Positions 20,057 through 33,885 of a stretch of DNA of 38,069 nucleotides are shown in pieces; within the stretch, counting starts at the first letter, position 1; each line of letters begins with the position of its first letter. The notes under the pieces are model-generated. The model worked only from the letters and a program-made list of their open reading frames with translations. It searched no databases and was not told the DNA's origin. The DNA is from a virus, in the IMG/VR virus record IMGVR_UViG_3300046782_000916, positions 1-38,069 of that record. The stretch is one strand, 5' to 3'. The translations under genes and the position numbers were made by a program.

Positions 20057-20094
20057 GGGGTGGCTGGGGGTGGAATGCCTGGCCCAGCCACCCC
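20057..20094 (-). terminator. Terminator of the long leftward operon
   Basis: GGGGTGGCTGGG (20057-20068) pairs perfectly with CCCAGCCACCCC (20083-20094) around a 14-base loop. It lies 60 bases downstream of the last gene of the leftward operon and upstream of promoter copy B. A smaller hairpin CTCCC-CTT-GGGAG near 20133-20145 is just past the stop codon. There is no clear T-run, so it is a strong GC stem of the kind used in high-GC genomes. Confidence 0.7.
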
Positions 20095-20153
20095 GGCGAT
20101 CAGCCTACCGCCTGCCTTCTACGGGGCTCCGGCTCCCCTTGGGAGTACTCGTT

Positions 20154-20777: not shown

Positions 20778-20813
20778 CCCACCTCCTCGAGCTTCCTCGT
20801 CACGGGGAACCGT

Positions 20814-21014
20814 TCATGGCGCCCTCCCGAGCCCGTCACGCAGGCGACCCCACCGGACCAGCTCCTCCTCCAGCACCAGCGCCGCGCGCTCGGCCTCCAG
20901 TACCGCTTCGGCGGCAGCGCGACGGGCGTGGTGCAGCTCGGCGGCGGCCTCCTCGACGCGCCACTGCGCCTCCTCGAGCATGTCGAGCGGAGTGAGGATC
21001 GGGAGCGCGCTCAC
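20814..21014 (-). CDS. Small coiled-coil protein
   Basis: A 66-aa protein with GTG start overlapping the thyX stop. Residues 11-55 form one long Ala/Glu/Leu helix with heptad spacing, ending with a basic segment. No family is recognised. It is a typical small accessory of an early operon and may act by oligomerising or binding a partner. Confidence 0.6.
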   Translation of the reverse strand: MSALPILTPLDMLEEAQWRVEEAAAELHHARRAAAEAVLEAERAALVLEEELVRWGRLRDGLGRAP

Positions 21015-21754: not shown

Positions 21755-22011
21755 CGCTGCCCCCGGTACGCCCGCGGGTCGGCCTCGCCGAACTGCACGT
21801 GGCGGGCCATCTGGCGGTACCAGCGCGCTTTCTCGAGATCGACCTCGGCCGGCCCCTTGTGCCCGGCCCGCAGTTCGTACTTGCGAGCGTTCCCGATGCA
21901 GAACGCCGCGAACCGTTCGTCGCCCAGCTCCTCGCGGATGATGTCGATCGCCTCGCGCCCCGTCGCCGTGTACCGGCTCGGGGCCGCGTCGAATCCCGTG
22001 TCATCGTTCAC
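21751..22011 (-). CDS. DUF3310 phage protein
   Basis: An 86-aa protein with GTG start overlapping the ERF stop. The C-terminal half KYELRAGHKGPAEVDLEKARW (about residues 44-64, read without gaps apart from start and end) matches DUF3310, where R-x-x-K-G-x-x-D-L-x-K-A-x-W-Y is conserved. The family occurs widely in phages near nucleotide-metabolism genes; its biochemical role is not established. Adjacency to thyX fits a link to nucleotide supply. Confidence 0.8.
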   Translation of the reverse strand: MNDDTGFDAAPSRYTATGREAIDIIREELGDERFAAFCIGNARKYELRAGHKGPAEVDLEKARWYRQMARHVQFGEADPRAYRGQR

Positions 22012-22805
22012 GCCGCACCTCCCGCCGTCTGCTCGTCGCGCCCGGCCCACTCCAGGATCGCGACCCGCAGCGACGGATCGGCGAGGCGGCGGAGGAGTTC
22101 GGCCCGCTGCTCCGACGACAGGTACGCCGGTGTGGTCTTGCCCTGCGCTTCGCGGTACGCCGAGAGCACCTCGAGCGGTACCGCGGGCTCCACGAGCTGC
22201 CCGAGCAGCCCCTCGAACCGCTCGCGCTCCACCGTCGTCCACCGCTGGCCTCCCCCGCTCGACCCCTCAGGGCCTGCACCACGAGCAGCCGAGGACGCGC
22301 CCGACACTCCGGACGCCGACGTCGAGGGGGGAGGCGAAGGGCGGCGCTGGTCGTGGTGCTGCTGCGCCGAGTCGGCGTCGCGACGAGGGGGCGGCTCGCG
22401 GTGGCGCTCGGCGTCCTCACCGGTCGGGACCAGGAAGGTGTGCCGCAGCGCATACTTGAGGGCGCCCGTCATCGCCTTGTAGACGCCCTTGTCCTCCCCG
22501 TCGATCCCGCAGCCGGGCGCTTGCACGGTCCTGCACTCGCCGCTCGCGTGCAGCAGGGCGTAGGTGACGAGCACCTCCGTGCGCCACTGGGGCTTGCCCT
22601 TGCCGTCGGGGCTGTGCTCTACCGTCTTGACGTCTACCCGCTCCGGGATCATCGCCAGCCCGACCTCTGCCATGGCGGGCTGCAACACCGTCAACAAGTC
22701 CTCGTCGCTCGCGTACGAGTAGCGGTGGAACGTGTTCTTCCCGGTCTCGGGCACGTACCGTACCCGGGCCATGACGGCGCAAAGCGCCTTGGCAAGCTCG
22801 CTCAC
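22008..22805 (-). CDS. erf: ERF-family single-strand annealing protein
   Basis: A 265-aa protein. GTG 22805 overlaps the HNH stop; a TTG four codons upstream is rejected. The N-terminal domain (residues 1-130) has the family pattern: NTFHRYSYASDEDL (24-37) and DKGVYKAMTGALKYALRHTF (105-124) followed by LVPTGED, which recall the Erf/Sak GxxxKAxTxAxKYxL motif. A Pro/Ser/Ala linker (135-190) connects to a helical C-terminal domain. The protein promotes annealing of complementary ssDNA and phage recombination. No partner exonuclease is visible nearby. Confidence 0.85.
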   Translation of the reverse strand: MSELAKALCAVMARVRYVPETGKNTFHRYSYASDEDLLTVLQPAMAEVGLAMIPERVDVKTVEHSPDGKGKPQWRTEVLVTYALLHASGECRTVQAPGCGIDGEDKGVYKAMTGALKYALRHTFLVPTGEDAERHREPPPRRDADSAQQHHDQRRPSPPPSTSASGVSGASSAARGAGPEGSSGGGQRWTTVERERFEGLLGQLVEPAVPLEVLSAYREAQGKTTPAYLSSEQRAELLRRLADPSLRVAILEWAGRDEQTAGGAA

Positions 22806-23368
22806 AGGTGCCTCCAAGCACGATTTGTGGTGATGCGGTGGACGGCAGAGCGACTGATGCCGAACCGCTCCGCCAGCGCCTTCAGGCCATCCGCCTTCGC
22901 GGCACGCATCGCGATCACGTCCTCGTCGGTCAGTTTGCTGTGCGCGTTGCGGACGCCAGCGCTCGTCTGATGGAGGACCCGATCGGCCGAGTTCTCTTCT
23001 CTCGTTCCGTAGGCGAGGTTCTCCAGCCTGACGTCGGCGCGGACGCCGTTCAGGTGCCTGATCTCCAAGCCGGGTGGCCTCGGCCCAACGAACGCTTCGA
23101 GGACCAGGCAGTGGACGCGCCGAAGCACCTTGCGTCCGGGGGCGGTCAACGTCACGCGCGGGTAGCCATGGACGAGCGCCGGCGCGAGGACTCGACCCCT
23201 GCGCACGTTGAACCGGCCGAGCGTGAAGACCTGCCGATCGAACGACCGCACGCGCCCAAGGCTGCTGACCTCATAGAAGTCCTCGAAGCCCACGACCGCG
23301 CGCCACTCCTCGACCTGCGCAGCCGCGCTCGCGGCCGACAGGGGGCTCGTGGTCGTCTCGTCAGCCAC
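22802..23368 (-). CDS. HNH endonuclease with NUMOD4 and helix-turn-helix
   Basis: A 188-aa protein with GTG start behind CTGGAGGTTCGCC. Domains in order: NUMOD4-like (residues 20-42, EEWRAVVGFEDFYEVSSLG), HNH_3 nuclease core (His86, RHLNG at 104-108, Asn117 in RLENL), and a C-terminal HTH (163-182, ALAERFGISRSAVHRI). This is the layout of free-standing homing endonucleases. It overlaps the ERF gene by exactly four bases, so it is embedded in the operon and not crudely inserted. It may act in homing, or have a packaging or nicking role. Confidence 0.85.
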   Translation of the reverse strand: MADETTTSPLSAASAAAQVEEWRAVVGFEDFYEVSSLGRVRSFDRQVFTLGRFNVRRGRVLAPALVHGYPRVTLTAPGRKVLRRVHCLVLEAFVGPRPPGLEIRHLNGVRADVRLENLAYGTREENSADRVLHQTSAGVRNAHSKLTDEDVIAMRAAKADGLKALAERFGISRSAVHRITTNRAWRHL

Positions 23369-23423
23369 GGCGAACCTCCAGGTTCAAGGTGTCAATCCAC
23401 TTGGACAGGCTGCGGCGGCTCAC
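23361..23423 (-). CDS. 20-codon ORF linking two operon genes
   Basis: GTG at 23423 overlaps the preceding stop by four bases and encodes MSRRSLSKWIDTLNLEVRRG, ending inside the start of the HNH gene. It carries the ribosome site for the HNH gene. Either it is a tiny translated leader that couples the two genes, or it is a remnant of a gene interrupted when the HNH gene arrived. Peptide function is unknown. Confidence 0.35.
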   Translation of the reverse strand: MSRRSLSKWIDTLNLEVRRG

Positions 23424-23647
23424 GGCGTCCTCCCCGGCGTCCAGTCCTCGAGCACGCGGCCGTCGGGGTCCAGCACCGCGAGCCGACACCGGGCGTCCCA
23501 CTGGATCGCGCGGCGGGTCAGCGCGGCCGCCAGCACCTCCGCCGGCACCCACCGGAGCGCCGCGAGCGCGACCCTGCGCATCGTCTCCTCGTCGACGGGA
23601 GCCACGGGGCGGAGGGCCTCCAGCGTCTCGCGGAAGGGGAGCGTCAC
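23420..23647 (-). CDS. Small hypothetical protein
   Basis: A 75-aa protein with GTG start overlapping its upstream neighbour. Helical N-terminal half (ETLEALRPV, then MRRVALAALRWVPAEVLAAAL), followed by a beta hairpin LAVLDPDGRVLEDW. The hairpin with D-x-x-G-R resembles the endings of the proteins at 25304 and 25555, hinting at a shared small fold or paralogy. No known family. Confidence 0.55.
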   Translation of the reverse strand: MTLPFRETLEALRPVAPVDEETMRRVALAALRWVPAEVLAAALTRRAIQWDARCRLAVLDPDGRVLEDWTPGRTP

Positions 23648-23874
23648 GGCCGCCCCCACCAGCACCCGCAGCGCGGGCACGGCTCGGAGCCGACGTGCAG
23701 CCCGCACCCGTCGCACCGGGGTGGGGCGAGGAAACCCGTGAGGGCCTTGTCGGGCGGCCGGAGGGGGCCCACGACCCCGAGGCCCGTCAGCGCGGCGAGC
23801 GTACCCACGCAGGTCAGCACCGCCCCGACCAGGGCGAGGGCGCAGGTCGACAGATCCGAGAGCAGGGCGATCAC
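23644..23874 (-). CDS. Membrane-anchored zinc-ribbon protein
   Basis: A 76-aa protein with GTG start. Residues 3-35 are hydrophobic (CALALVGAVLTCVGTLAALTGLG), one transmembrane helix. The C-terminus holds CDGCG and CPRCGC (Cys54, 57, 66, 69), a compact zinc ribbon. The combination of one span plus a short zinc ribbon is unusual in a phage early operon. A role at the host membrane is inferred; there is no known family. Confidence 0.6.
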   Translation of the reverse strand: MIALLSDLSTCALALVGAVLTCVGTLAALTGLGVVGPLRPPDKALTGFLAPPRCDGCGLHVGSEPCPRCGCWWGRP

Positions 23875-24425
23875 GGCGTGCCTCCGAGATGGGTGGCGAC
23901 GAGCGCGAGGGCGAGGCGGTCGATCCAGCGCGCGCCGTCGGGGAGGAGGCGGGCGTCGGTGGGGTCGAGGTCGGCGAGGGCGGGGACGACGTTCTCCACA
24001 GCCCGGGAGTAGGCCCAGCCGGTGAGCGGAGGGTCGCGCCTCGGTTGGTTCGCGAAGACCCGGACGCCGAGGCCGAGCTCGCCAAACAACCAGATGGCCA
24101 ACGGAGGATCGGCGCGGGCCGAGTAGCTTCGCCACCCCGGCGCCGTACACCCCACCTCCAGCCCCACCCGGCCCGCGCACCACCGCGCGACCCGGTCCGC
24201 CGTGGCGCTGTCCGAGAGGTTGGCGTCGAAGTCAGCGGGGTAGTGGAGGTTGCTACCGTCCTCGTTGACGTCGTCGGCGAGGAAGACGTGGACGCCGGTC
24301 GAGAGCGTCACGAGACCGGCGGGCAAGCCGTCCTCGCCGATCACGCGCAGCCCCACCGGGTCGAACCCGGGCAGCCTGTCGAGCGGCACCCGCAGGCGCG
24401 CCAACTCCTCCGACGTCAACGTCAC
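23871..24425 (-). CDS. Hypothetical globular protein
   Basis: A 184-aa protein with GTG start overlapping the cupin-like gene. Mixed alpha/beta with conserved-looking phrases VGLRVIGEDGLP, GVHVFLADD, NLHYPADFDANLSDS and VGLEVGCTAPGW. Later ENVVPALADLDP and a helix close the protein. No catalytic motif can be assigned. It is one of the larger unknowns of the operon and has typical codon use, so it is a real gene. Confidence 0.58.
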   Translation of the reverse strand: MTLTSEELARLRVPLDRLPGFDPVGLRVIGEDGLPAGLVTLSTGVHVFLADDVNEDGSNLHYPADFDANLSDSATADRVARWCAGRVGLEVGCTAPGWRSYSARADPPLAIWLFGELGLGVRVFANQPRRDPPLTGWAYSRAVENVVPALADLDPTDARLLPDGARWIDRLALALVATHLGGTP

Positions 24426-24844
24426 GGGGCACCTCCGGCCCACTGGGCTTGCGCATCGCGCCAGTAGATCCACTGTCCATCGACCAGGAAGCCCCACGAG
24501 CGGCGTCGCGGGCCGGTCCACACCAGCGTCCAGACCGGACGGTCGATCACCAGGCGATGCAGATCCTCGGCCTGGCGGCGGACCAGCGAGCACCACGGCC
24601 ACCGGCGTGTCCCGGTCGGCGTGATCTCGGTGTACCCGCCGGTCAACAGCAGCGACCAGAAGTCCCACGGGTGGTCGTGCAGCGCCCGCGCCTCATCGGA
24701 TCGGAGGATGTGGTGCAAACGAACCGTGAACCACGGGGTCTGCAGGTACCAGCGGCTCATGTAGGAGCCGATGTGGTTTGGGCCGAGGAACCACCGACTC
24801 GTGGTGCGGGCCCACGGCAGTCGACTGCGATCGAACAGCTTCAC
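24422..24844 (-). CDS. Cupin-like protein
   Basis: A 140-aa protein with GTG start overlapping the previous stop. LHDHPWDFWSLLLTGGYTEI (about residues 52-71) is the cupin-type metal motif: two His plus a strand and Gly-Gly turn, followed by a second His in EDLHRL. Proteins with this HDHPWDF phrase are common in phages and bacteria as small cupins of unknown substrate. It may bind a metal and modify a small molecule; no enzymatic role is certain. Confidence 0.65.
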   Translation of the reverse strand: MKLFDRSRLPWARTTSRWFLGPNHIGSYMSRWYLQTPWFTVRLHHILRSDEARALHDHPWDFWSLLLTGGYTEITPTGTRRWPWCSLVRRQAEDLHRLVIDRPVWTLVWTGPRRRSWGFLVDGQWIYWRDAQAQWAGGAP

Positions 24845-25047
24845 GGCTCCTCCTCGGGCGCGTCGAGCACGACGACGCCCAGCAGACGGTGGGTGGGGTC
24901 GGACGCCTGGACCGCGTCCAGGCAGGGGAGCACGGGCACGCCCTGGCTCCGCAGGAGGTCGAGCTCGGTGCGGCCAATGCGGCGCCTCGGCCACACCTCG
25001 CCCTGGGGCGGGCTGAGGCGGACGGCGATGAGCGGGTGGGCGGTCAT
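24841..25047 (-). CDS. Small hypothetical protein
   Basis: A 68-aa protein with ATG start overlapping its neighbour. Strand-rich beginning (LIAVRLSPPQGEVWP), a basic turn (RRRIGRTEL), then a strand pair ending LLGVVVLDAPEEEP. No family is known. Its acidic end and size resemble other tiny early proteins of this operon. Confidence 0.52.
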   Translation of the reverse strand: MTAHPLIAVRLSPPQGEVWPRRRIGRTELDLLRSQGVPVLPCLDAVQASDPTHRLLGVVVLDAPEEEP

Positions 25048-25307
25048 GGCTGCACCCGCCCGCGCGCGCAGTCCGCGGCGTCGTGGCGGACCGTGACGGT
25101 CCCGTCGCAGTCGAACCAGGTGTGGCACACGCGCCCCGCGTTGCTGGCCGCTGGCTCCCCGAGCCACCAGCGGGCACCGCAGCACCGACACCACCAGGCG
25201 CCGCTGACCACCGACCACGCGATCGCCGCGACGTCGCAGCCGCAGCGGACGCCAGGTGCCGGGAAGGGCTGGCCGTCGCGAGCGGAGATCCCCAGTGGGA
25301 GGTTCAC
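25044..25307 (-). CDS. Small Cys-rich, zinc-ribbon-like protein
   Basis: An 87-aa protein with GTG start overlapping the next gene upstream. Cysteines occur as CGC, then CRCCG, then single Cys near the end (CHTWFDC, DCARG). The spacing could coordinate one or two zinc ions. Trp-rich (AWWCRCCGARWW). No family is recognised. It follows several other small Cys- or His-containing proteins in this operon. Confidence 0.55.
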   Translation of the reverse strand: MNLPLGISARDGQPFPAPGVRCGCDVAAIAWSVVSGAWWCRCCGARWWLGEPAASNAGRVCHTWFDCDGTVTVRHDAADCARGRVQP

Positions 25308-25558
25308 AACACCCTCCCCGCGAGGAGCGCCCGCTCCGCCAACGTCTCCGCCGCGTCCGCGGTCACCGCGCGATGCGTCCGTCCCTCCCGATCCGTGACG
25401 GTCCAGAACGGGGCAGCGAACACGACCCGGACGCCGTCCTCGGTGATCGAGGCGCACGACGGGGCGTGGGCCACGAGGCGGTGCGCGGCCCGGCGGGCGG
25501 ACTCGAGCACGCGCGCGCGGGTCTCGGCTACGATGTCGTCGAGGAGGTCGTCGATCAC
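25304..25558 (-). CDS. Small hypothetical protein
   Basis: An 84-aa protein with GTG start overlapping the preceding stop. N-terminal helix DDLLDDIVAETRARVLESARR, then strands VRVVFAAPFWTVTDREGRTHR and a short C-terminal helix. The DREGR hairpin recalls similar hairpins in the proteins at 25555 and 23420. Possibly one of a set of related small proteins; function unknown. Confidence 0.55.
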   Translation of the reverse strand: MIDDLLDDIVAETRARVLESARRAAHRLVAHAPSCASITEDGVRVVFAAPFWTVTDREGRTHRAVTADAAETLAERALLAGRVL

Positions 25559-25956
25559 CAGCCACCTCCGAGCAGCGTCCAGCCCACTTCCTGGACCGAG
25601 GCGTCGGCGGCGTCGCGCGCCTCGGAGGGGTCGAGGAACGACTCGCCGGTCTCGTGGCCGAACACGAAGGCCAACCACGGTGCTGAGGGCGTGTCGCGGG
25701 AGACGTGGCAGACCGCCTCGTGCTGCTCGACTCGCCCTTCGCGGTCCATGCGGACGACGAGCGGCCAGCGGGTCCACGCCTCATCGCCGTCGGACCCCAC
25801 GGACCGGTGCCACGCTTGCGCGATCTGCGCGCCCTCGACGAGCTGCGCGTAGGTGGCGGGCGACTCGCGCAGGTAGGTCCGGATCGCCGGCAGCGCGTCG
25901 GCGCTGGACTGGGCGAGGATCCGGGCGAGGACCGCGGAACGCTTCGTGGCGGTCAC
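25555..25956 (-). CDS. Hypothetical protein
   Basis: A 133-aa protein with GTG start overlapping its neighbour. N-terminal helices (residues 5-50), then RWPLVVRMDREGRVEQHEAVC and a strand WLAFVFGHETGE, ending in a helix and GWTLLGGGW. The middle shares the D-R-E-G-R hairpin with the gene downstream. No known family. Real gene by codon use and coupling. Confidence 0.55.
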   Translation of the reverse strand: MTATKRSAVLARILAQSSADALPAIRTYLRESPATYAQLVEGAQIAQAWHRSVGSDGDEAWTRWPLVVRMDREGRVEQHEAVCHVSRDTPSAPWLAFVFGHETGESFLDPSEARDAADASVQEVGWTLLGGGW

Positions 25957-26260
25957 GGCTGCACCAGCTCGGGCCACGCGCCCTGGTCGAAGCGGGCCGC
26001 GAAGTCGGCGCAGGCTGCGGGCAACGGCACCTGCTGCTCGTCGGGGCCCCAGACGTGCCGGTCGCCGACCCACCAGTCGCCGTAGCCGTGGTCGGCGAGG
26101 TAGGCGGCCAGCGGGCACTCGTACAGGCGGCCGGGACGACCCTGGATCTGCAGGTCGAGGAGGTGGGAGGCCACCTCATCGGGGGTAGTGCCGAGACGGG
26201 CCAGGAGCGCCGCCGGGGACGGGGGCGTTGGGACGCGAACTCGAACGGGGATCGGCAGGG

Positions 26261-26264
<4 letters not shown>
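25953..26264 (-). CDS. Small hypothetical protein
   Basis: A 103-aa protein with ATG start overlapping the preceding stop (ATGA). It begins with a Pro/Val-rich strand, then a helix (SPAALLARLGTTPDEVASHLL). CPLAAYLADHGYGDWWVGDRH follows, which looks like a small domain conserved in some phages (CPxAxYL). A Trp/Asp-rich end closes the protein. The specific function is unknown. Confidence 0.55.
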
Positions 26265-26844
<580 letters not shown>

Positions 26845-26848
<4 letters not shown>

Positions 26849-27273
26849 GCGGCCTCCAGGGACTCGCCCTCGGCGATCAGCTCCACGATCCGGGTCTGGT
26901 CCAGCAGCGCCTCCAGCTCGCCGAGGCGGAGGTCCGGGGTGCTCCGGCGCAGGTCCAGCAGCGAGCGGGCCTGGCGGACCGCCTTGGGGTCCCGGCCCGA
27001 CAGCGTCTCGAGGAGGTAGGCGCGGCGGTCCCGCACCGTCGCGAGGGCCGCCTGAAGCTCGGGCGACTCGAGGTTGTGGTGGGCCTGCGCCCGGTCGGCC
27101 GGGCTGGCCTCGGACAACCGAGGGAAGCCCAGCAACTCGCGGGCGTCCGACAAGTCGAGGATCGTGGTGCCGAGGCGCTTGAGGCGGTCGGCGAGGTCGC
27201 GGCGCTGGCCCGGGGTCCACGTCGCCGGGGCGGCGTGGCGCTGCAGCGGGACGACCGGGATCGGGGCGGTCAC
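26845..27273 (-). CDS. Hypothetical helical protein
   Basis: A 142-aa protein with GTG start overlapping the first operon gene. Mostly helical with many Leu/Arg/Glu (DLADRLKRLGTTILDLSDARELLG, then several further helices). The C-terminal helix LGELEALLDQTRIVELIAEGESLE may form a coiled coil. No family is recognised. Second gene from PL, so expressed very early. Confidence 0.58.
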
Positions 27274-27620
27274 TTCCGCACCCCGATCTCGACGTCGAAC
27301 AGGCGATCGGCTTCGGCCTCGTCGATGAACCAGAGGCCCGTGATGATCGTGGGCTCGGGGTCGGCCTGGCGCTCCATCGAGGTCGCGTCCTCGTCGTCGC
27401 GCTCCTGCTGCGCGACCGGATCGAGGTACGGCCACCCGTCGGCCGCGAGCCGGGCGCGGGCCTGGATCTCGAGGTCGAGGATCCGCTGGTAGTACTCGGT
27501 CTGGGCGCGCAGCCCGGCGCAGGTCGGCGGCGGCGCGGGGGAGCGGCGGCCGCTCGGGAAGTCGGTGCGCGAGGGGGCGAAGTCGGGGGTCGGGTCGCGC
27601 TCGTCGGGGGTGAGGATCAT
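27270..27620 (-). CDS. First gene of the leftward early operon, hypothetical
   Basis: A 116-aa protein with ATG start behind CGGAGCCCAAC. N-terminus Asp/Pro/Ser/Arg-rich, then a helix (AQTEYYQRILDLEIQARARLAADG). An acidic stretch follows (QQERDDEDATSMERQADPEP), with a final alpha/beta end GLWFIDEAEADRLF. Unknown family. As the first gene from PL, it is a candidate host-takeover or anti-repressor protein, but there is no direct evidence. Confidence 0.58.
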   Translation of the reverse strand: MILTPDERDPTPDFAPSRTDFPSGRRSPAPPPTCAGLRAQTEYYQRILDLEIQARARLAADGWPYLDPVAQQERDDEDATSMERQADPEPTIITGLWFIDEAEADRLFDVEIGVRK

Positions 27621-27633
27621 GTTGGGCTCCGTT

Positions 27634-27652
27634 CGTCAGGTACAACATGACG
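27634..27652. promoter_or_regulatory. Operator O1
   Basis: CGTCAGGTACAACATGACG: arms CGTCA/TGACG separated by 9 bases, consensus CGTCAGG-N7-TGACG shared with O2-O5. It overlaps the -10 box and start point of PL. A repressor dimer here would block leftward transcription. Confidence 0.75.
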
Positions 27653-27678
27653 ATATCGGAGCCCGTTCCGGCGGTCAA
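27650..27678 (-). promoter_or_regulatory. Leftward early promoter PL
   Basis: Minus strand TTGACC (27673-27678), 17-bp spacer, TATCGT (27650-27655). The predicted start point near 27643 gives a leader of about 20 bases before the ATG at 27620. The -35 box lies inside operator O2 and the -10 overlaps O1, so repression would be direct. Confidence 0.7.
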
Positions 27679-27691
27679 GTACCGCCTGACG
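27673..27691. promoter_or_regulatory. Operator O2
   Basis: On the minus strand CGTCAGGCGGTACTTGACC, one arm base off the consensus. It contains the -35 hexamer of PL, so repressor binding would cover the polymerase site. Confidence 0.72.
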
Positions 27692-27694
27692 ATT

Positions 27695-28153
27695 TCAGGT
27701 TACATGGCGTTGCAACCTGGTGATCATGTCAATGATTACCTGACGATCCGCGGGGGGCAGCACGGACAGCGTCCTGCACACGTCCGCAAGCTCGATCGGG
27801 ACGCGGATCGCGACGGAAGGATCCGCGGACTGGACCAGGTCCACCTCGAGACGGAGACCCAGCGCCCGGGCCCACGCGGCGAAGGCGTCGATCTTCGGCT
27901 GGGTCTTGAACTCCTCCCAGTCCTGCAGGGATTGCTTGGACAGCTTGTCGCGACCCCACTCGCGCGCGACCACGTCCGCCGTCTCCTGCAGGGACCAGCC
28001 CCGCCGGATCCGCTCCGCCTTCAGTACGGAACGGAGCCACCGAGCGTGATCCGTACCCCTGCCCACATCGTCCTCCAGCACATGACGCGCGCCGGTAACC
28101 GGGCGCTCGTCAGGCTGTTCTTGACGACTCCACTGTTCCTCTGATACGTCCAT
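27695..28153 (-). CDS. Phage repressor (XRE-type helix-turn-helix)
   Basis: A 152-aa protein. ATG 28153 is chosen for the GGGGGG upstream and the promoter placement. Residues 37-85 carry an HTH domain: LRSVLKAERIRRGWSLQETA, then SKQSLQDWE with the recognition helix. Residues 105-150 are a helical C-terminal part (RTLSVLPPADRQVIIDMITRL) that may dimerise. There is no LexA/S24 peptidase domain, so RecA-driven self-cleavage is not expected. It is divergent from the Cro-like gene and flanked by five operators, fitting a lysogeny repressor. Operators O3 and O4 lie inside its coding sequence. Confidence 0.8.
   Translation of the reverse strand: MDVSEEQWSRQEQPDERPVTGARHVLEDDVGRGTDHARWLRSVLKAERIRRGWSLQETADVVAREWGRDKLSKQSLQDWEEFKTQPKIDAFAAWARALGLRLEVDLVQSADPSVAIRVPIELADVCRTLSVLPPADRQVIIDMITRLQRHVT
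27727..27745. promoter_or_regulatory. Operator O3
   Basis: On the minus strand CGTCAGGTAATCATTGACA, inside the 3' end of the repressor gene. It includes a perfect TTGACA, but no -10 box lies 16-18 bp further on. It is 54 bp from O2 on the same face (about five turns), suitable for cooperative contacts. Confidence 0.68.
28108..28126. promoter_or_regulatory. Operator O4
   Basis: CGTCAGGCTGTTCTTGACG, matching the consensus exactly in both arms. Its right arm is the -35 hexamer TTGACG of the rightward promoter, within the 5' part of the repressor gene. Confidence 0.74.
28121..28148 (+). promoter_or_regulatory. Rightward early promoter PR (candidate)
   Basis: TTGACG (28121-28126), 16-bp spacer, GATACG (28143-28148). 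The -10 is weak, but both -35 and start region coincide with operators O4 and O5. It would drive the Cro-like gene and the replication operon. Confidence 0.5.
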
Positions 28154-28172
28154 CGTCAGGCCCCCCATGACG
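28154..28172. promoter_or_regulatory. Operator O5
   Basis: CGTCAGGCCCCCCATGACG between the repressor start codon and the Cro-like gene. It covers the expected start point of PR and sits just downstream of the -10 of the repressor promoter, so it could both repress PR and autoregulate the repressor. Confidence 0.74.
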
Positions 28173-28176
28173 AGGG

Positions 28177-28205
28177 AATGTATGTCCGTTGCGCGACTGA
28201 TCCAA
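28177..28205 (-). promoter_or_regulatory. Repressor promoter (PRM-like, candidate)
   Basis: Minus strand TTGGAT (28200-28205), exactly 17 bp, TACATT (28177-28182). The start point near 28170 lies in O5, about 17 bases before the repressor ATG. Confidence 0.52.
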
Positions 28206-28424
28206 GAGAGACTCAAAGAGTTGGGTATGAAGGCGCCCCAGCTCCGGATCGAGCTGGACCGGAAGGGCGTCAGCGTCTCTCGGGCGGCGGTCCACGCCTG
28301 GTGCACGGGCATCGATCGCCCTCGTCCGGCGCACGTCCTCGCGTTGTGGGAGGTGCTCGTCGTCCCGCTCGAGGAGCGCCCTCGTTGGATGGAGGCGCTC
28401 GCCGAGCCGCGGGCGGAAGCATGA
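28182..28424 (+). CDS. Cro-like helix-turn-helix protein
   Basis: An 80-aa protein from ATG 28182, with GAGGGA four bases upstream; an in-frame ATG at 28167 lies within O5. The HTH pattern is VARLIQERLKELGMKAPQLRIEL, then VSRAAVHAWCTG as recognition helix and RPAHVLALWEVL, as in XRE/Cro proteins. It is divergent from the repressor with 28 bp between start codons. It likely competes for the 19-bp operators. First gene of the rightward early operon. Confidence 0.75.
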   Translation: MSVARLIQERLKELGMKAPQLRIELDRKGVSVSRAAVHAWCTGIDRPRPAHVLALWEVLVVPLEERPRWMEALAEPRAEA

Positions 28425-28579
28425 CCCGCCTCCGCGTCTCCCGGGCCTCGCTCGCGGCGCTCGTCGCCAAGTCCTCGGCCGCTCCCTCCGCGCCTCGCCC
28501 GAGCAGCACCTCCCGGGACGTGGAGCGGAGCGGTCCTCGAGCGTGGACGTCGGTCGGACCCGACACGGAGGTCGCGTGA
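28421..28579 (+). CDS. Very small basic protein
   Basis: A 52-aa ORF with ATG overlapping the Cro stop (ATGA). Arg/Ser/Ala-rich with an N-terminal helix (RASLAALVAKSSAA) and a disordered end. It links the Cro-like gene to the winged-helix gene by 4-bp overlaps at both ends, which supports translation. No family is known. Confidence 0.45.
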   Translation: MTRLRVSRASLAALVAKSSAAPSAPRPSSTSRDVERSGPRAWTSVGPDTEVA

Positions 28580-28779
28580 CGGTCACCCGCTCGGGGGCGC
28601 AGGTGCTCGAGGCGGACCTACTCCGCCTGCTCGCCGATGGTCGGCCGCGCTGGGCGGAGGAGCTGGCCACGGCGACGGGTCGGGCGGCGCTGTCCGTCCA
28701 GAACCAGCTCCGGGCCATGGTTCGGCGAGGGCTCGTGCGCGTCACCTGCCGGCGCCCGTTCACCGTGGTGCGGACGTGA
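28576..28779 (+). CDS. Winged-helix DNA-binding protein
   Basis: A 67-aa protein with GTG start overlapping the previous stop. Helix EADLLRLLADG, helix WAEELATATG, recognition helix ALSVQNQLRAMVRRG, and wing strands LVRVTCRRPFTVV match a minimal MarR/ArsR-type winged helix. It may regulate early genes or be a replication accessory. No known operator can be assigned. Confidence 0.65.
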   Translation: MTVTRSGAQVLEADLLRLLADGRPRWAEELATATGRAALSVQNQLRAMVRRGLVRVTCRRPFTVVRT

Positions 28780-29015
28780 TCCGCGGCGCTCACACCAACC
28801 TCGTCCCGCCGCGACTCCGGTACGTTGGGACGCCCGCGGCGGTCGACGTCCGGATCGAGGGCTGGGAGCGGCTCGTCCGCCTGTACGGCTGGGAGGACGG
28901 GTCGTCGCTGCGGCGTCCGGACCTGACGCCTCGCGCTGGTCCGCACGCGGCGGGCTGCGACTGCTGCGCGTGTCTCGGTCGGGTCGGCGTGGGGCTGGCG
29001 GGGGTGCGGCCGTGA
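28776..29015 (+). CDS. Small hypothetical protein
   Basis: A 79-aa protein with GTG start overlapping its neighbour. Contains RLYGWEDG and a C-terminal HAAGCDCCACLG, with three clustered Cys that could bind metal. It directly precedes the methyltransferase gene, which it overlaps by four bases. No known family. Confidence 0.52.
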   Translation: MIRGAHTNLVPPRLRYVGTPAAVDVRIEGWERLVRLYGWEDGSSLRRPDLTPRAGPHAAGCDCCACLGRVGVGLAGVRP

Positions 29016-29899
29016 GCGTGCTCGTCGATCTCTGCGCCGGCACCGCCTCGGTCTCGCTGTACGCGATGGCCCGGATCGGCCCGCTGTGCGGGTTTATGGG
29101 CTCCAAACGTCGCTATGCCCCGGCGCTCGTCCAGGCGCTCGGGGTCGACCGGCCCGATCGGGTGGTGCTGGTGGACGCGGGGCCGTGGGGCGACGTGTGG
29201 ACGGTCCTGCAGGACGAGTTCCACCGGGCCCGCGTGGCGCAGCTCCTCGAGGTCTGGGCCCTCGAGGACGTCTCCGCGCTGTGGGAGCGTCTCGTCTCGC
29301 GGGCGCCCTCGGCGGACCCTGCCGAGCGGGTCGCTCAGTTCCTCTGGCTCCAGGCCCGTGCGGCCGGCACGATCCCGATCTGGTGGTCGGCGGAGCACCA
29401 GCGTTGGCGGTCGCCGACGGGCGCGGTCGACGCCGCCGCGAGCTGCGACCTCGCCTCGATGACGAAGGGTCTCCCCGATCGCGTCGGGCGCGTCTCGAGC
29501 AAGGGCATCGCGCCGTCGGTCGCGGGACGTCGCGGGTGGGGCTCAGGACGCCGGACTGCCGGGCTGATCGCGCGCCGGGTTCGCGCCCTCGATGTTCTGC
29601 CCTGGGACCGGATCGAGGTGATCCACGGCGACGTGCGCGAGGTCGCCCCGATCCCGGGCGCCGTCGTGATCCTCGACCCGCCCTACGTCGGGTGTCCCCG
29701 CTACCCGGTCCTCTTCCCGCGTGCCGACGTCCTCGAGGTCGCCGAGCGGCACGCCGCGGTCTCCCGCGTCGTCGTCTGCGAGGCCGAGCCACTCCCGCTC
29801 GACGGGTGGACCTCGAGGCGTCTCGCCGAGCGCGAGTGGGTGACCGCGTCCTGGCCGATCGCGCTGCCCGAGCAGCTCGACCTCTGGAGGGCCGCTTGA
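29012..29899 (+). CDS. DNA adenine N6-methyltransferase (D12/Dam-like)
   Basis: A 295-aa protein with GTG start overlapping the preceding stop. DLCAGTASVSL (residues 6-16) is the SAM-binding motif I; GFMGSKRRYAPAL (27-39) resembles the GSKxxxxP segment of D12 enzymes; ILDPPYVG (220-227) is the catalytic DPPY motif. In typical Dam the GSK segment comes before motif I; here motif I comes first, so this is an unusual order. It probably methylates phage DNA, either to evade restriction or to mark the origin. No cognate restriction enzyme is nearby. Confidence 0.75.
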   Translation: MSVLVDLCAGTASVSLYAMARIGPLCGFMGSKRRYAPALVQALGVDRPDRVVLVDAGPWGDVWTVLQDEFHRARVAQLLEVWALEDVSALWERLVSRAPSADPAERVAQFLWLQARAAGTIPIWWSAEHQRWRSPTGAVDAAASCDLASMTKGLPDRVGRVSSKGIAPSVAGRRGWGSGRRTAGLIARRVRALDVLPWDRIEVIHGDVREVAPIPGAVVILDPPYVGCPRYPVLFPRADVLEVAERHAAVSRVVVCEAEPLPLDGWTSRRLAEREWVTASWPIALPEQLDLWRAA

Positions 29900-30030
29900 T
29901 CCCGATCCTCCTCCGCCTCCGCCTCGGGGCCGAGCTGCGCCTCGTGACGGTCGATCCGGCGCTGGCCCAGGCACTGCGGGACCAGCCGGGCGTCGCGCGC
30001 TGCTGGGTCGTGCGGTGGAGGCGCCGATGA
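29896..30030 (+). CDS. Tiny protein with TTG start
   Basis: A 44-aa ORF. The TTG at 29896 overlaps the methyltransferase stop (TTGA) and the ORF ends overlapping the next gene by four bases. Leu/Arg/Val-rich strand then helix (ALAQALRDQPGVARC) and a basic end WRRR. Coupling at both ends suggests it is translated, but TTG is rare here, so confidence is moderate. Confidence 0.42.
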   Translation: MIPILLRLRLGAELRLVTVDPALAQALRDQPGVARCWVVRWRRR

Positions 30031-30194
30031 CGCGCTGGTGGCGGATCGACGGTCGGTACTTCGTGGCTGGGCTGCGGGTCGAGGGCGGCACGGTGGTCGA
30101 GGCCGCGCCGATCCTCGCGTGGACCGTGGGCCGAGTGTGGACAGAGCTGCGAGCGCACTTCCGCCGGCGGGGCTGGCACGGGGAGCCGTTGTGA
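30027..30194 (+). CDS. Tiny hypothetical protein
   Basis: A 55-aa ORF with ATG start overlapping its upstream neighbour and ending in an overlap with the initiator gene. Opens MTRWWRIDGRYFVAGLRVEG, followed by VVEAAPILAWTVGR, a strand-strand-helix arrangement recurrent in small phage proteins near replication genes. Function unknown. Confidence 0.5.
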   Translation: MTRWWRIDGRYFVAGLRVEGGTVVEAAPILAWTVGRVWTELRAHFRRRGWHGEPL

Positions 30195-31177
30195 GCGGCT
30201 GGGTGCCCATGCCGGTCGACGGCTGGCAGGAGACGGCGGAGCTCCTCACCAGCACCGGGAAGCCTTGGCCCGAGCAGGCGGCGGTCACGGACCTCCGCTG
30301 GCACGTCGACCAGGGGCGGCCGCTGCCGGGGCGCCCGACGCTGTGCAAGCGGTGGAACTGGACGGACAAGCCCGTACGGAACCTGCTCGCTGCCACCGAT
30401 CGGTGGTGGGATCCGCTCCGTGGGCCTGCTCCGACCAGCCGCGTCGAACTGTCGTCGCACCATCATCCGGGTCGCGGTCCAGCTCAGGTCCAGGTCGGGT
30501 CCAGCCTGGGTCCAGCTCAGGTCCAGGTCGACAACGGAAGAACCTCGACTATCGAGACCGAAAGTCCAGCTCAGGTCCAGGTCGGGTCCAGCCTGGGTCC
30601 AGCTCAGGTCCACACGCGTGGGGATCCACCCTCACCCTCACCCTCACCTCCACCGGAGAAGAAGACAGACGTCGCGGACGGTTCCCGGCAGCCGCCTCCG
30701 GCGGAGTCTGCTCCCACGAAGGAGCAGCGGAGGGCGGACTTCGACCAGTTGCTCGAGGTCTGGAACACCGAGATCGTGCCGACTGCGCGCAAGCGCGGGG
30801 CACAGGTGGCGCCCCACGAGCGGCTACAGCCCTCGTCTGGCCTCGGAAAGCTCGTTCGCCAGCGCCTCGACCAGCACGGCCTCGACCGCTGCCTGTCCGT
30901 CGTCCGCTGGTTCGGGTCCGCCGATCACCCGCGGGCGCAGTTCCTCCGCGACGGGGGGCACGAGCTCTCGACGCTGATGCGCCCGCAGAAGTTCGACGAG
31001 TACGCGGCCTTCGCCGAGGCGCCTGTCGCGCTCGTCGGACGCCACAAGCACGACCCCGCCCCGGCCCGCGCGCCTCCTCCCGTCATGTCTCGCGAGGAGT
31101 ACGAGCGCGAGTTGGCGCTCCAGGCCGAGATCGACCGGAAACGGGAAGCAGAGCGGAGGCCGTTGTGGACGAAGTAG
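30191..31177 (+). CDS. Replication initiator (lambda O-like) containing the origin
   Basis: A 328-aa protein with GTG start overlapping the previous stop. N-terminal 85 residues are a winged-helix-like domain (GWQETAELLTSTGKPWPEQA, then LCKRWNWTDKPVRNLL). The middle (about 95-140) is encoded by iterons and reads as repeated PAQVQVGSSLGPAQV, followed by a Pro/Ser linker. The C-terminal part (about 178-280, ADFDQLLEVWNTEIVPTA and further helices) would contact the helicase loader, whose gene overlaps by 13 bp. Initiator, internal iterons and adjacent loader are the lambda O/P arrangement. Confidence 0.75.
   Translation: MSGWVPMPVDGWQETAELLTSTGKPWPEQAAVTDLRWHVDQGRPLPGRPTLCKRWNWTDKPVRNLLAATDRWWDPLRGPAPTSRVELSSHHHPGRGPAQVQVGSSLGPAQVQVDNGRTSTIETESPAQVQVGSSLGPAQVHTRGDPPSPSPSPPPEKKTDVADGSRQPPPAESAPTKEQRRADFDQLLEVWNTEIVPTARKRGAQVAPHERLQPSSGLGKLVRQRLDQHGLDRCLSVVRWFGSADHPRAQFLRDGGHELSTLMRPQKFDEYAAFAEAPVALVGRHKHDPAPARAPPPVMSREEYERELALQAEIDRKREAERRPLWTK
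30476..30612. repeat. Replication origin iterons inside the initiator gene
   Basis: Tandem 11-bp units GGTCCAG-N4. Array 1 has five units (30476, 30487, 30498, 30509, 30520). Array 2 has four full units (30563, 30574, 30585, 30596; the first starts with A) plus a partial at 30607. Unit types alternate in the same order in both arrays, so the arrays derive from an 87-bp (29-codon) duplication. Between them, 30531-30562 is less GC-rich (gacaacggaagaacct...), a possible melting site. In lambda the O protein binds iterons within its own gene. Confidence 0.78.
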
Positions 31178-32169
31178 GCGACATCCCCGACATCGACGCC
31201 GTGCTGAGCGTGGCCCGTCCGACGCTGCTCGATCCGGAGCTCGAGCCGGAGCCGGTCCTCTGCCGCACCTGCCGCAAGGAGCACCGGTGGTCGTGGTGGC
31301 CCGGTCGAGGCACCGTCCGCGGCCGCTGGTGCCCTCCACCGAGCCCCTGCACCGCGTGCGCGTTCACGCAAGAGCTGCTCGACGACCGGGCCGAGCTGGT
31401 CCGACGGCAGGAGATTGCCGAGATCGCCGAGGTCCACCGGAAGGCTCGCTGGTCCGCTCGCCTCGTTCAGCAGCTCGACGAGAGCTGGACCGACTTCGCG
31501 CGTCGCGTGAAGCGCCAGCCCGGACAACTCGGAGTCGCGGTCGCCGACCTGCCCGCTTCGCGGATCGTGGGCAACTGGAGGCCGGGCGACGGAGGGATCT
31601 TCCTGTCTGGCCCGATCGGATCGGGCAAGAGCCAATGGCTGTCGGCGCTGCTGACCGAGTTGATCGCTCCGACGTCGGGCGGTCGCGTGACGCTCGACGT
31701 GGAGCAGCAGGTTCGCCTCGGCGTTCCTCCCGCAACGGCCCGTCGCGCGGTCGAGACCGGCTGCAACGTGTGGGTCACACCGAAGGGGGCGCAGCGCTAC
31801 CAGGCGCTCGTCGTCGACGAAGACGAGATCGTGCGGCGCGTTCGGCTCTCGTGGAAGGGCGACCAGGTGCCGCTGCTGAAGATCTCGCGCAGTCCGGTGC
31901 TGCTCTATGACGACATCGGGACGGTGATCCTCTCGCACGGGAAGGGCGCGGACCTTGCTCGGGACTGCCTCGACCGCATGATCGACCTGCGGTGGCGCGA
32001 GGGGAGGCCGCTGCTCGCCACCAGCAACCGGTCGCTCGACGAGATCTGCGACGCGCTCGGTCGCAAGACGGCCGATCGACTGCGCGCGCTGTTCGACCAC
32101 CAGCTCGAGCTCCGCGGCGTGCCAGAGGATCTCGTCGCCAAGGGCTTCTCGTGGCGGAGGATCCCGTGA
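31165..32169 (+). CDS. DnaC/IstB-like helicase loader ATPase
   Basis: A 334-aa protein with GTG start behind GGAGGCCGTT. An N-terminal zinc finger has Cys33, Cys36, Cys56, Cys62 and Cys65, followed by a helical coil. The AAA+ core has Walker A GPIGSGKS (149-156) and Walker B LLYDDIG (246-252), and sensor-like ATSNRS near residue 286. It would load the host replicative helicase at the origin in the preceding gene. Length exceeds DnaC because of the zinc-finger region and an insert with repeated basic residues (185-240). Confidence 0.85.
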   Translation: MDEVGDIPDIDAVLSVARPTLLDPELEPEPVLCRTCRKEHRWSWWPGRGTVRGRWCPPPSPCTACAFTQELLDDRAELVRRQEIAEIAEVHRKARWSARLVQQLDESWTDFARRVKRQPGQLGVAVADLPASRIVGNWRPGDGGIFLSGPIGSGKSQWLSALLTELIAPTSGGRVTLDVEQQVRLGVPPATARRAVETGCNVWVTPKGAQRYQALVVDEDEIVRRVRLSWKGDQVPLLKISRSPVLLYDDIGTVILSHGKGADLARDCLDRMIDLRWREGRPLLATSNRSLDEICDALGRKTADRLRALFDHQLELRGVPEDLVAKGFSWRRIP

Positions 32170-32705
32170 TCCTCGCCATCGACCCGGGCCACGAAGGTGG
32201 CGCCGTCCTGCTCGACGGGCGGGGTCTCCCCGTCGCGTGGTGGAGCTGGAAGCCCCTCGATCGCAAGAGCGGGCGCGTGTACGCGATCGACCGCTCCGAC
32301 GCCGCGTGGGACCGGATCACGGTCCGCACCCTCGCGGGCGTCGGTGCCGAGCTGGCGCTCTCGCTGCGGGAGGAGCGGCAATCCGGCCTCCATCTCGTCG
32401 CCGAGGGGCTGTTCGTACACCCCGGCGCGCGAGGAGGTCGGGCGCACGCCGCGATCGAGCTCGGGAAGTCGGTCGGGTGGCTCACCGCCCCTCTGCTGGA
32501 GTCGGCGCTCAGCTACGAGGAGCCCCGCTCTGCGGTGTGGCGTCCGGCGGTGCTGGGTCCAGGGTCGAACGCCTCGAGCGACATCGCCGAGGCGCGGGCG
32601 CTGGCGCTGTGGTCGAGGCGGTGGACCGGTCCACCATGCCCCGACCCGCACGTCGCGGAAGCCTACTGTATCGGGTGGTGGCGACACACGAGGAGGGCGG
32701 CGTGA
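32166..32705 (+). CDS. RuvC-like Holliday junction resolvase
   Basis: A 179-aa protein with GTG start overlapping the loader stop. RNase H-fold signature: ILAIDPGHEGGAV (residues 2-14) with Asp6, VAEGLFV with Glu80, and CPDPHVAEAY with Asp160 and Glu165. Central segment GGRAHAAIELGKSVGWL (90-106) matches RuvC-type helices. It would resolve branched phage DNA before packaging. Slightly longer than bacterial RuvC (about 170), as usual for phage members. Confidence 0.78.
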   Translation: MILAIDPGHEGGAVLLDGRGLPVAWWSWKPLDRKSGRVYAIDRSDAAWDRITVRTLAGVGAELALSLREERQSGLHLVAEGLFVHPGARGGRAHAAIELGKSVGWLTAPLLESALSYEEPRSAVWRPAVLGPGSNASSDIAEARALALWSRRWTGPPCPDPHVAEAYCIGWWRHTRRAA

Positions 32706-32947
32706 GGCACTGGGAGCAAGAGCCGGACGGTACGTGGGCGCTGGCCGACCGCGGGAGCGCCCTGTTCTACGTCCGCTCGGACAACCCGAAGGGCTGGGGC
32801 ACCGTCACCGCGACGAGCCCAACGACCGACCTCGAGATCCGGCGTGGCCACAACGACGTGGCGGGCTCGCTGGAGGAGTCGATCGAGGTCGTGAAGGCGC
32901 TCGTCGAGGCGTACCTGACGTACGTGGCGGCGCAGAGGGGATCGTGA
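32702..32947 (+). CDS. Small hypothetical protein
   Basis: An 81-aa protein with GTG start overlapping the resolvase stop. Strands HWEQEPDGTWALADRGS and WGTVTATSPTTDLEIRRG, then a C-terminal helix SLEESIEVVKALVEAYLTYVA. Compact single domain. No family is recognised. It lies between resolvase and co-chaperonin, separated from the latter by 28 bp with a fresh ribosome site. Confidence 0.58.
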   Translation: MRHWEQEPDGTWALADRGSALFYVRSDNPKGWGTVTATSPTTDLEIRRGHNDVAGSLEESIEVVKALVEAYLTYVAAQRGS

Positions 32948-32975
32948 CGCGAACCGGCGCAATTCGGAGGGAACC

Positions 32976-33272
32976 GTGGTGCTGACCTTGCTCGACGACC
33001 AGGTGTTGATCCGCCGCGCTCCGGCGGAGACGGTCACGACCGGCGGGCTCGTGCTGCCCGACCGCGACGTGCCGATCCCGCTGCGGGGGACGGTGCTGGC
33101 GGTGGGGCCCGGCAAGGCGCCGACGTGTCCCTGTGGCGTGCGGGTGCCGGTGGCCGTCCAACCGGGGGACGAGGTACTCCACGCGCGGTACGCGGGCACC
33201 GACGTCGAGGTGGACGGGGCACCGTGCCTCGTGGTGCGAGAGGCGGACGTGCTGGGAGTGCTGACGCCGTGA
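32976..33272 (+). CDS. groES: GroES-like co-chaperonin
   Basis: A 98-aa protein with GTG start behind CGGAGGGAACC. It has all GroES landmarks: DDQVLIRRA (residues 7-15), the GroEL-binding mobile loop ETVTTGGLVLPD (18-29) with the GLV hydrophobic tripeptide, RGTVLAVGPG (37-46), VQPGDEVLHARYAGTDVEVD (61-80) and VREADVLGVL (87-96). It would cap host GroEL to fold phage proteins, as T4 gp31 does for the capsid. A CPC motif near residue 51 sits in the roof loop, which is unusual. No groEL is present. Confidence 0.92.
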   Translation: MVLTLLDDQVLIRRAPAETVTTGGLVLPDRDVPIPLRGTVLAVGPGKAPTCPCGVRVPVAVQPGDEVLHARYAGTDVEVDGAPCLVVREADVLGVLTP

Positions 33273-33754
33273 GCTCCACCGCGCGAACGGGCAAGGCGAT
33301 TGCCCTGCAACGTTTTGTCGCGGGCCGCAACACGACGGAAATCGCCGAAGAGCTAGGCGTAGATCGCATCACGGTCTGGCGGTGGCGGCGAGAGCCGGAG
33401 TTTGCCGAGGAGCTGGCGAACATCCAGCAGCAGATCCTCTCGGACGTGCACGATCAGGTTCTGGCCAGCGCGCTGAAGTCGATCGGCGTGATCGTGGAGA
33501 TCCGCGACGACGAGAAGCAGTCGGGGTTCACCCGACTGCGCGCGGCCGTCGCGATCCTCGAGCTACTCGGTCGCCACAAGGGCAGCCCCGTCTCCCCCGT
33601 GGTGTTGGAGGGGGAGATCGAGACCGAGGAGCAGCTCACCGAGGCGCTGAGCCAGATCCCCGAGGACGTGCTGCGCCGGGAGGTCGAGCGCCGGGCGACG
33701 GAGCGGGCCAGCCGGCCGGCGAGGCGGCGGAAGCCGAAGGTGAAGGACCTGTGA
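33269..33754 (+). CDS. terS: Terminase small subunit
   Basis: A 161-aa protein with GTG start overlapping the co-chaperonin stop. N-terminal HTH: AIALQRFVAGRNTTEIAEEL, then GVDRITVWRWRREPEF (about 31-46) as recognition helix. A central helical oligomerisation region (QQQILSDVHDQVLASALKSIG) and a basic C-terminal tail (ARRRKPKVKDL) that would contact the large subunit follow. It recognises the packaging site on phage DNA. Unusually, it is the last gene of the early/middle rightward operon and faces the large-subunit gene on the opposite strand. Confidence 0.75.
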   Translation: MSSTARTGKAIALQRFVAGRNTTEIAEELGVDRITVWRWRREPEFAEELANIQQQILSDVHDQVLASALKSIGVIVEIRDDEKQSGFTRLRAAVAILELLGRHKGSPVSPVVLEGEIETEEQLTEALSQIPEDVLRREVERRATERASRPARRRKPKVKDL

Positions 33755-33885
33755 GGGTGCCCGCCCGAGTGGCGCCGCCGGATTGCCGGAGTCGAACCGG
33801 TACTATTCGAGTATGAATCGAACGTCCCCACCTGGAGACAGCGTGTAGGCGGCGCGCGGTGGGCGGGCACGATGGACGTAACGGA
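33755..33885. other. Structured element with tRNA-Met-like half between the terminase genes
   Basis: Outer inverted repeat GTGCCCGCCC (33757-33766) with GGGCGGGCAC (33861-33870); inner repeat GCGCCGCC (33772-33779) with GGCGGCGC (33848-33855). On the minus strand the enclosed sequence holds an anticodon-like arm (TTCGA, loop TTCATAC, TCGAA; anticodon CAT, T33 and A37 present). A T-arm follows with the perfect box GGTTCGACTCC, and a D-arm-like GTCT/GGAC lies upstream. The expected 7-bp acceptor stem does not pair. It may be a degenerate tRNA-Met, an attP carrying a tRNA 3' half, a packaging signal or a bidirectional terminator. Confidence 0.5.

Follow-up and report, generated by a model that had tools for sequence, protein, structure and literature searches.

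In phage lambda a leftward repressor gene lies between PL and PR, operators sit on the early promoters, Cro comes first rightward with replication genes and iterons behind it, and the recombination genes lie leftward; its O-ori-P arrangement exists without plasmid lysogeny. Cluster A stoperators are 13-bp asymmetric sites spread throughout the genome, and short inverted repeats are the binding sites of many host regulators. Excerpts of the account of the telomere phages N15 and phiKO2 describe an immB region in which five operators are divided between the two sides of the repressor gene and Cro lies beyond the right-hand sites; no self-cleavage residues were detected in that repressor, and the gene order recalls lambda-like phages (PMC4997575). 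The operators are 16-bp T-A-N10-T-A sequences, two OL, which lie before repA, and three OR; the same excerpts state that the phiKO2 prophage repressor binds all five and Cro binds OR3 only (PMC4997575). The lytic and lysogenic promoters of coliphage 186 converge and interfere, according to the passage cited (PMC6593788). For TP901-1, the partial text describes three operators (OL, OR and OD), a MOR protein that acts by binding CI, and a CI with no peptidase domain and no autocleavage, induction being RecA-dependent by an unknown route (PMC11149083). Mycobacteriophage BPs, as portrayed in the sections cited, has a small repressor (136 or 103 residues), a putative Cro-like gene, and Prep and PR with operators at the promoters; its half sites (CGACATATGTCG) are 12 bp long, its five binding regions are scattered over the genome, and its immunity depends on integration, with an integrase gene beside the repressor (PMC4557955).

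We analysed a stretch of 38,069 bases (the window), which is a whole virus record carrying an exact 127-base repeat at both ends; the assembly is most likely a complete circle of 37,942 bases. GC content, measured per 1-kb step, is 67-77%, ARAGORN found no tRNA genes in the record, and megablast of window positions 20001-38069 against 50,697 phage records gave no match. As judged from its sequence, the phage represents an undescribed high-GC lineage, many of whose proteins have no family match. We consider it probable that this phage carries an early transcription switch of the lambda/N15 type, built on a new operator sequence to which a regulator is predicted to bind. Its components are as follows.

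27634-27652, plus strand: O1, CGTCAGGTACAACATGACG; runs from the last bases of the PL -10 across the expected PL start.
27650-27678, minus strand: predicted promoter PL, TTGACC-17-TATCGT; expected start near 27643.
27673-27691, minus strand: O2, CGTCAGGCGGTACTTGACC; its TTGACC arm is the PL -35.
27695-28066, minus strand: repressor-like gene, 123 aa from the favoured GTG start with GGAGGA; an alternative ATG at 28153 would give 152 aa.
27727-27745, minus strand: O3, CGTCAGGTAATCATTGACA; within the 3' end of the repressor gene, its centre 54 bp from that of O2.
28108-28126, plus strand: O4, CGTCAGGCTGTTCTTGACG; its TTGACG arm is the -35 of the candidate PR.
28121-28150, plus strand: candidate PR, TTGACG-18-TACGTC (TG before the -10) or, with a spacer of 16, GATACG; weak -10; predicted start near 28157.
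28154-28172, plus strand: O5, CGTCAGGCCCCCCATGACG; lies where transcription from both PR and the leftward repressor promoter is expected to begin; scores lowest of the five with the matrix.
28177-28205, minus strand: candidate repressor promoter, TTGGAT-17-TACATT; transcription expected to begin near 28170, within O5.
28182-28424, plus strand: Cro-like HTH gene (P0002), 80 aa; first gene of the rightward operon.
32902-32920, minus strand: a doubtful sixth site, CGTCAGGTACGCCTCGACG, within the predicted gene 32702-32947.

The five 19-bp sites had been listed in a sequence-only reading of this DNA, starting at 27634, 27673, 27727, 28108 and 28154 with 9 bases between the arms, and we reproduced every position. 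Oriented as O1+, O2-, O3-, O4+ and O5+, all five read T-CGTCAGG-N6-[A/T]-TGAC and fall within 539 bp; the operator thus read is a palindrome carrying a constant asymmetry. On the plus strand one arm deviates in its outer base in O2 (GGTCA) and in O3 (TGTCA). The window has three exact copies of CGTCA-N9-TGACG, compared with 0.10 expected, and none of 100 shuffles contained at least three. With one outer arm base left free there are six sites genome-wide, five in the cluster and one at 19654, and the same count in 300 first-order Markov genomes had a mean of 0.37 and a maximum of 2. Leave-one-out matrices applied to 75,884 positions gave O1 and O4 the top rank; O2, O3 and O5 each came second, with 32902 the one position ahead of them. 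A matrix built from all five sites is biased in their favour; with it, no other site in the genome reached their scores, and the highest best score among 150 third-order Markov genomes was 20.4 against 22.2 for the weakest operator. The sequence-only reading had proposed a genome-wide scan for the motif; the sites proved to be confined to 27634-28172, bar the doubtful 32902. That site outscores O2, O3 and O5 in the leave-one-out tests. We kept it doubtful as a sixth operator: its score of 18.3 was equalled by the best score in 6 of 150 third-order Markov genomes, and no T precedes its arm.

We scanned the genome for promoters with a weighted sigma70-like matrix and ran a separate, stricter consensus scan of 26801-29000. 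PL has the highest sigma70-like score of the genome in the weighted scan (16.1) and is the only match of the consensus scan. Its TTGACC-17-TATCGT was present as previously read, with the O2 arm as -35 and the start region under O1; the idea that the arm itself supplies the -35 hexamer held for PL, through TTGACC of O2, and for the candidate PR, through TTGACG of O4. The further claim that PR repeats the arrangement of PL stands for the operator positions, O4 on the -35 and O5 on the start region, and fails for promoter quality: the -35 is good, every choice of -10 scores below 0, and the total of 7.7, with 18-base spacing and the TG bonus, ranks about 46th genome-wide against first for PL. The candidate repressor promoter is the second-best signal in 27000-29000 and sixth genome-wide in the weighted scan, and is absent from the stricter one; O5 does cover the expected start of this predicted leftward promoter, where the earlier reading had put it. 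If both are real, the best-scoring promoters at the right edge face each other, sharing O5 over their starts, PR being the weak member; a back-to-back leftward candidate at 28159 (score 6.5) is about as weak as PR. On the left, O1 and O2 overlap PL; on the right, O4 and O5 are in place at a candidate PR that is itself weak.

We also asked where else such sites occur. CGTCA-N9-TGAC spaced pairs across viral contigs defined 68 stretches, 13 of which we inspected by eye: in several the sites fall within replication-type genes or repeats of coding DNA (L018, L010/L054, L009, L045), and in others they lie beside HTH-type or terminase genes (L004, L015, L071, L022, L029, L034). In L018, three CGTCAGGTACAGCCTGACG-type repeats at 14252-14312, matching O1 at 17 of 19 bases, lie in a gene resembling a replication HTH protein and are probably origin iterons. 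CGTCAC/T-type 19-bp palindrome arrays in other phages (e.g. CGTCACCGTTTTGGTGACG) share arms and spacing and differ in the centre; by eye they lie near HTH-type or terminase genes (L004 6762-6900, L015 133-249, L071 2832-2904, L022 9025-9164 and L042 1356-1452). The best site scores of the controls L072-L078 were 11.3-17.0, all below the five operators, and that of the motif-selected L018 was 23.1. Because some same-motif stretches elsewhere are repeats inside genes, the motif alone does not prove an operator, and position supplies the rest. A search of literature text for CGTCAGG with operator and phage found nothing related, the spaced motif being seldom printed as that word.

Could the cluster be a product of chance, or a repeat without regulatory meaning? 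The words CGTCA and TGACG are frequent in this genome, allowing two mismatches yields 57 sites against 36.8 expected, and the three L018 repeats, like-scoring and resembling origin iterons within a gene, show that such sites need not be operators. However, none of 300 first-order Markov genomes reached the cluster, none of 150 third-order genomes reached the score of the weakest site (with the matrix trained on the sites), and the -35 of the genome's best promoter is the O2 arm. Chance clustering is largely refuted, and we give this explanation almost no weight. By position and statistics together the sites look like operators; we take the five to be real and probably bound by a phage regulator.

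The likeliest such regulators are encoded between and beside the sites. We searched the repressor-like protein in its 152-aa form from ATG 28153 (P0001), which matched phrog_3 (transcriptional repressor; E 2.6e-5) and HTH_3 (E 1.2e-4, just below the curated Pfam cut-off), both weakly; its single-sequence structure model was unusable (mean pLDDT 43). The 29-codon extension to ATG 28153 scores below 99% of 380 same-length coding windows and above 97% of wrong-frame windows, GTG 28066 is preceded by a GGAGGA ribosome site, and operators within a coding stretch would also depress the coding score of the extension. We favour GTG 28066 as the true start, in which case O4 would lie upstream of the gene and O3 alone inside it. 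Of the two operators earlier placed inside the repressor gene, O3 is there, in the 3' end, and O4 is probably upstream, given the favoured start. Searches of PHROGs, Pfam and NCBIfam detected no LexA-type (S24) self-cleaving or peptidase domain in P0001, and neither HTH protein gave a peptidase-domain match, in agreement with the earlier description of a repressor lacking one. The corollary drawn there, that induction must use another trigger, does not follow: because TP901-1 CI has no peptidase domain yet, in the partial text cited, is induced in a RecA-dependent manner, the absence of a peptidase does not imply a non-SOS trigger (PMC11149083). The Cro-like protein P0002 matched HTH_31 weakly (E 3.2e-4, below the curated Pfam cut-off) and was modelled as five helices; two of the five models were confident, the best having a mean pLDDT of 86.6. 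The solved structures closest to that model were the TP901-1 CI NTD (best, E 0.09), restriction C-proteins, P22 c2 and 434 Cro, and no match went below E 0.001. The gene finder starts this gene at ATG 28227, which would truncate the first helix; because the modelled first helix (residues 3-14) precedes 28227, we keep the predicted start at 28182.

We propose that dimers of the leftward HTH protein (27695-28066), and perhaps the 80-aa Cro-like protein too, bind the 19-bp operators. Binding at the left edge, to O2 on the PL -35 and O1 on the start, would turn off the leftward operon with its small genes and those for the Erf-like protein, the HNH nuclease and thymidylate synthase; binding on the right, to O4 on the PR -35 and O5 on the start region, would do the same to the Cro-like and replication genes. 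O5, lying over the start of the repressor's own promoter, would serve autoregulation or a Cro-driven shut-off, and as the lowest-scoring site it would suit being filled last. The Cro-like protein may occupy the same sites with a different order of preference; shared use is not to be assumed, because phiKO2 Cro binds only OR3 in the published excerpts (PMC4997575). O3 most likely aids occupancy of O2, their centres being 5.1 turns apart; the centres of O1 and O2 are separated by 39 bp and those of O4 and O5 by 46 bp, neither a whole number of turns. The sequence itself shows the sites with their positions and clustering, the PL sequence, the gene order and the HTH matches; from this layout we infer who binds, repression, autoregulation, the use of PR and the role of O3. 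A host regulator might bind the sites instead of a phage protein, as many host regulators use short inverted repeats and binding specificity is unreadable from sequence data. The sites, however, gather around the early promoters and two HTH genes of the phage, with almost none elsewhere in the genome, which makes a host regulator very improbable.

Genes were mapped by a simple codon-score method. The leftward run extends from 27620 to 18993 and the rightward run ends at 33754; three genes bear on the comparison with lambda.

27270-27620, minus strand: first leftward gene behind PL; no family match below E 0.2.
30191-31177, plus strand: O-like candidate gene, which holds 11-bp iterons; start picked by eye (gene finder: 30749).
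31165-32169, plus strand: DnaC-like helicase loader, in a position like that of lambda P.

Members of the leftward run are an Imm5-like domain protein, an HNH nuclease, an Erf-like annealing protein, thymidylate synthase, small genes, and a protein that matches phrog_4786 (cysteine dioxygenase) at E 1.2e-35 and has no Pfam match. The Imm5-like gene (26261-26848) encodes a putative immunity-protein domain above the Pfam cut-off, and its DNA from 26340 to 26544 is a GCGGCG-type repeat of 6- to 27-base units. The rightward run comprises the Cro-like gene, a gene with weak winged-helix-type matches, a weak MTase-like gene (E 0.003), the iteron-bearing gene, the DnaC-like loader, a weak Holliday-junction-resolvase match, a GroES-like protein and the protein of 33269-33754. 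A Cro-like HTH gene thus heads the rightward operon with replication genes downstream, a lambda-type feature, and by these assignments the gene order is lambda-like. Two 49-bp blocks of 11-bp repeats (GGTCCAGCTCA type) at 30466-30612 lie within gene 30191-31177, which gave no family match in profile searches; placed just before the DnaC-like loader, they likely mark a lambda-O-like origin.

Beyond the rightward run, the large terminase gene and the 566-aa gene behind it (33886-37007) run leftward, against most genes at 9-15819; the 566-aa protein has no family in PHROGs, Pfam or NCBIfam. At 37037-37078, between the start of the leftward gene beside the large terminase (37007) and that of a rightward gene (37089), two near-copies of TGCGAC-GACT-GTCGCA with one mismatch each are joined by TTATAA. 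They are perhaps a second, different operator pair for divergent promoters; this motif alone is unenriched, with 4 occurrences against 6.2 expected genome-wide at two mismatches.

The sequence-only reading called the region an immunity region. Immunity presumes lysogeny, and profile searches recognised no integrase, partition ATPase or protelomerase among the scanned genes, which took in every predicted gene of at least 250 aa at least once, some in a longer frame reading, and a part of the small genes. Lysogeny is therefore putative here, and so is immunity. Because many genes at 9-18974 match nothing, the absence of a family match is weak evidence on lifestyle.

That absence, in an apparently complete circular genome, would fit a phage that is no longer or never was lysogenic and in which the regulators time early transcription and shut off early genes with no immunity, a reading that differs in lifestyle only. 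We hold it to be possible and distinctly less probable than not: the repressor-like gene between PL and the right operators has a good leftward promoter of its own, as for a maintained repressor, and among the unmatched genes at 9-18974 an unrecognised recombinase would leave room for lysogeny, as would a plasmid-like mode. The last rightward gene, 33269-33754, also speaks against a purely timing role through weak matches in PHROGs to CII-like regulators (E 0.0016, 0.0022) and an excisionase family (E 0.013). The best PHROGs matches of its product are small terminase subunits, and in Pfam it matches transposase-type HTH domains.

A plasmid lysogeny like that of N15/phiKO2, in which the operators of a circular prophage would restrain both its lytic genes and its replication from the iteron origin, would accommodate the unrecognised integrase and the 11-bp iterons within the gene just before the DnaC-like loader. 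Lambda, however, has an equal O-ori-P layout without plasmid lysogeny, and we found neither a ParA-like nor a protelomerase match, nor a long perfect palindrome of telomere type, all 13 close-spaced inverted repeats of at least 14 bp being imperfect. The leftward gene 20154-20777 belongs to the unknown family phrog_12600, with relatives 30-49% identical in tailed phages and Microviridae. One of its relatives in 13 phage records is called ParB-like, which would favour a plasmid state; another is labelled a putative DNA methylase and the others are hypothetical. Because the relatives include Microviridae and that putative methylase, the ParB label is doubtful. The five operators and a repressor without self-cleavage, as excerpted for phiKO2/N15 (PMC4997575), point the same way as the iterons, and taken together we judge plasmid lysogeny unlikely. 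A more specific combination is less probable again: a lineage nearly without relatives in the collections examined would keep a full lambda-like early layout without integrase, five operators and a non-cleavable repressor would govern facing, 186-like promoters and transcription through the iteron origin, and these operators would fix both the copy number and the immunity of a circular prophage. We offer it as speculation.

An early transcription switch of the lambda/N15 type, our preferred reading, gains no homologous switch for comparison from relatives: neither P0001 nor P0002 was matched in phage records or in viral contigs, which left nothing by which to judge site conservation. Relatives in viral contigs were sought with P0001, P0002, 20154-20777, the terminase, the first structural gene and the MTase-like gene. 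One near-identical contig (L079/L083, 25,355 bases) is 99.0-99.9% identical, the compared parts running from window position 30307 over the joint to 10977; because these parts begin at 30307 and the whole contig contains no exact site, it misses the switch region. Other contigs are single-gene relatives, seven at 45-65% identity (20154-20777) and three at 30-34% (terminase). Ten gene-sharing virus records, including the near-identical contig and with L077 left out of 11, hold one exact site in total. Against 75 loci (the 68 stretches plus L072-L078), tblastn of P0001-P0003 gave one match, P0002 to L078 at E 0.44, and no homologous switch was recognised. P0001 has weak matches in Bacillus taeanensis (L084; 32% over 66 residues) and in one Vibrio tapetis plasmid (two records, E 0.5), and distant blastn of 27001-29400 gave three short matches at E 0.06. 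We rejected naming a host from the terminase, whose 25.6% match to Cellulosimicrobium phage DS1 is too weak.

For a high-GC lineage in which many proteins lack a family match, the locus supplies a predicted switch and an operator sequence open to test. In practical terms the yield is modest, amounting to three parts that could be tried directly: a repressor, a set of operators and a strong predicted promoter. We found no sequence kinship between the repressor and those of lambda and N15, yet the number and layout of the operators are similar, as would fit repeated origins of such switches.

With lambda the locus shares a leftward repressor-like gene between PL and the candidate PR, operators on PL and in place at the weak PR, a Cro-like gene first rightward, iteron-bearing replication genes behind it and recombination genes leftward; unlike lambda, it has no peptidase domain in its repressor and no integrase recognised among the scanned genes. 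Cluster A stoperators differ, as the sites here are confined to 27634-28172, bar the doubtful 32902. The sites are 19 bp long, against 17 bp in lambda as given in the excerpts cited (PMC4997575), and the predicted repressor promoter would face the weak PR, unlike the back-to-back pair of lambda in the passage cited (PMC6593788). Facing promoters, which here are predicted and include a weak PR, liken the locus by promoter layout to coliphage 186 as that passage describes it. By the partial description, TP901-1 resembles it in a CI without peptidase domain, several palindromic operators and a small HTH partner (PMC11149083), and differs in having three operators where this locus has five. BPs, in the sections cited, shares a small repressor, a Cro-like gene and operators at the repressor and rightward promoters (PMC4557955); its scattered binding regions, CGACATATGTCG half sites and integrase beside the repressor are not seen here. 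The locus agrees with N15/phiKO2 as excerpted in dividing five operators between the two ends of the repressor gene, in placing a Cro-like gene after the right-hand sites and in having a repressor without cleavage, which here means domain absence only (PMC4997575). It departs from those excerpts in its 19-bp CGTCAGG-type sites, three on the left (one inside the gene) and two on the right, and from these telomere phages in having no protelomerase match or perfect telomere palindrome. We judge the closest precedents to be N15/phiKO2 for operators and repressor and lambda for gene order. What is new lies in the operator sequence and the proteins; in parts and logic the locus is a familiar one and not a new kind of system.
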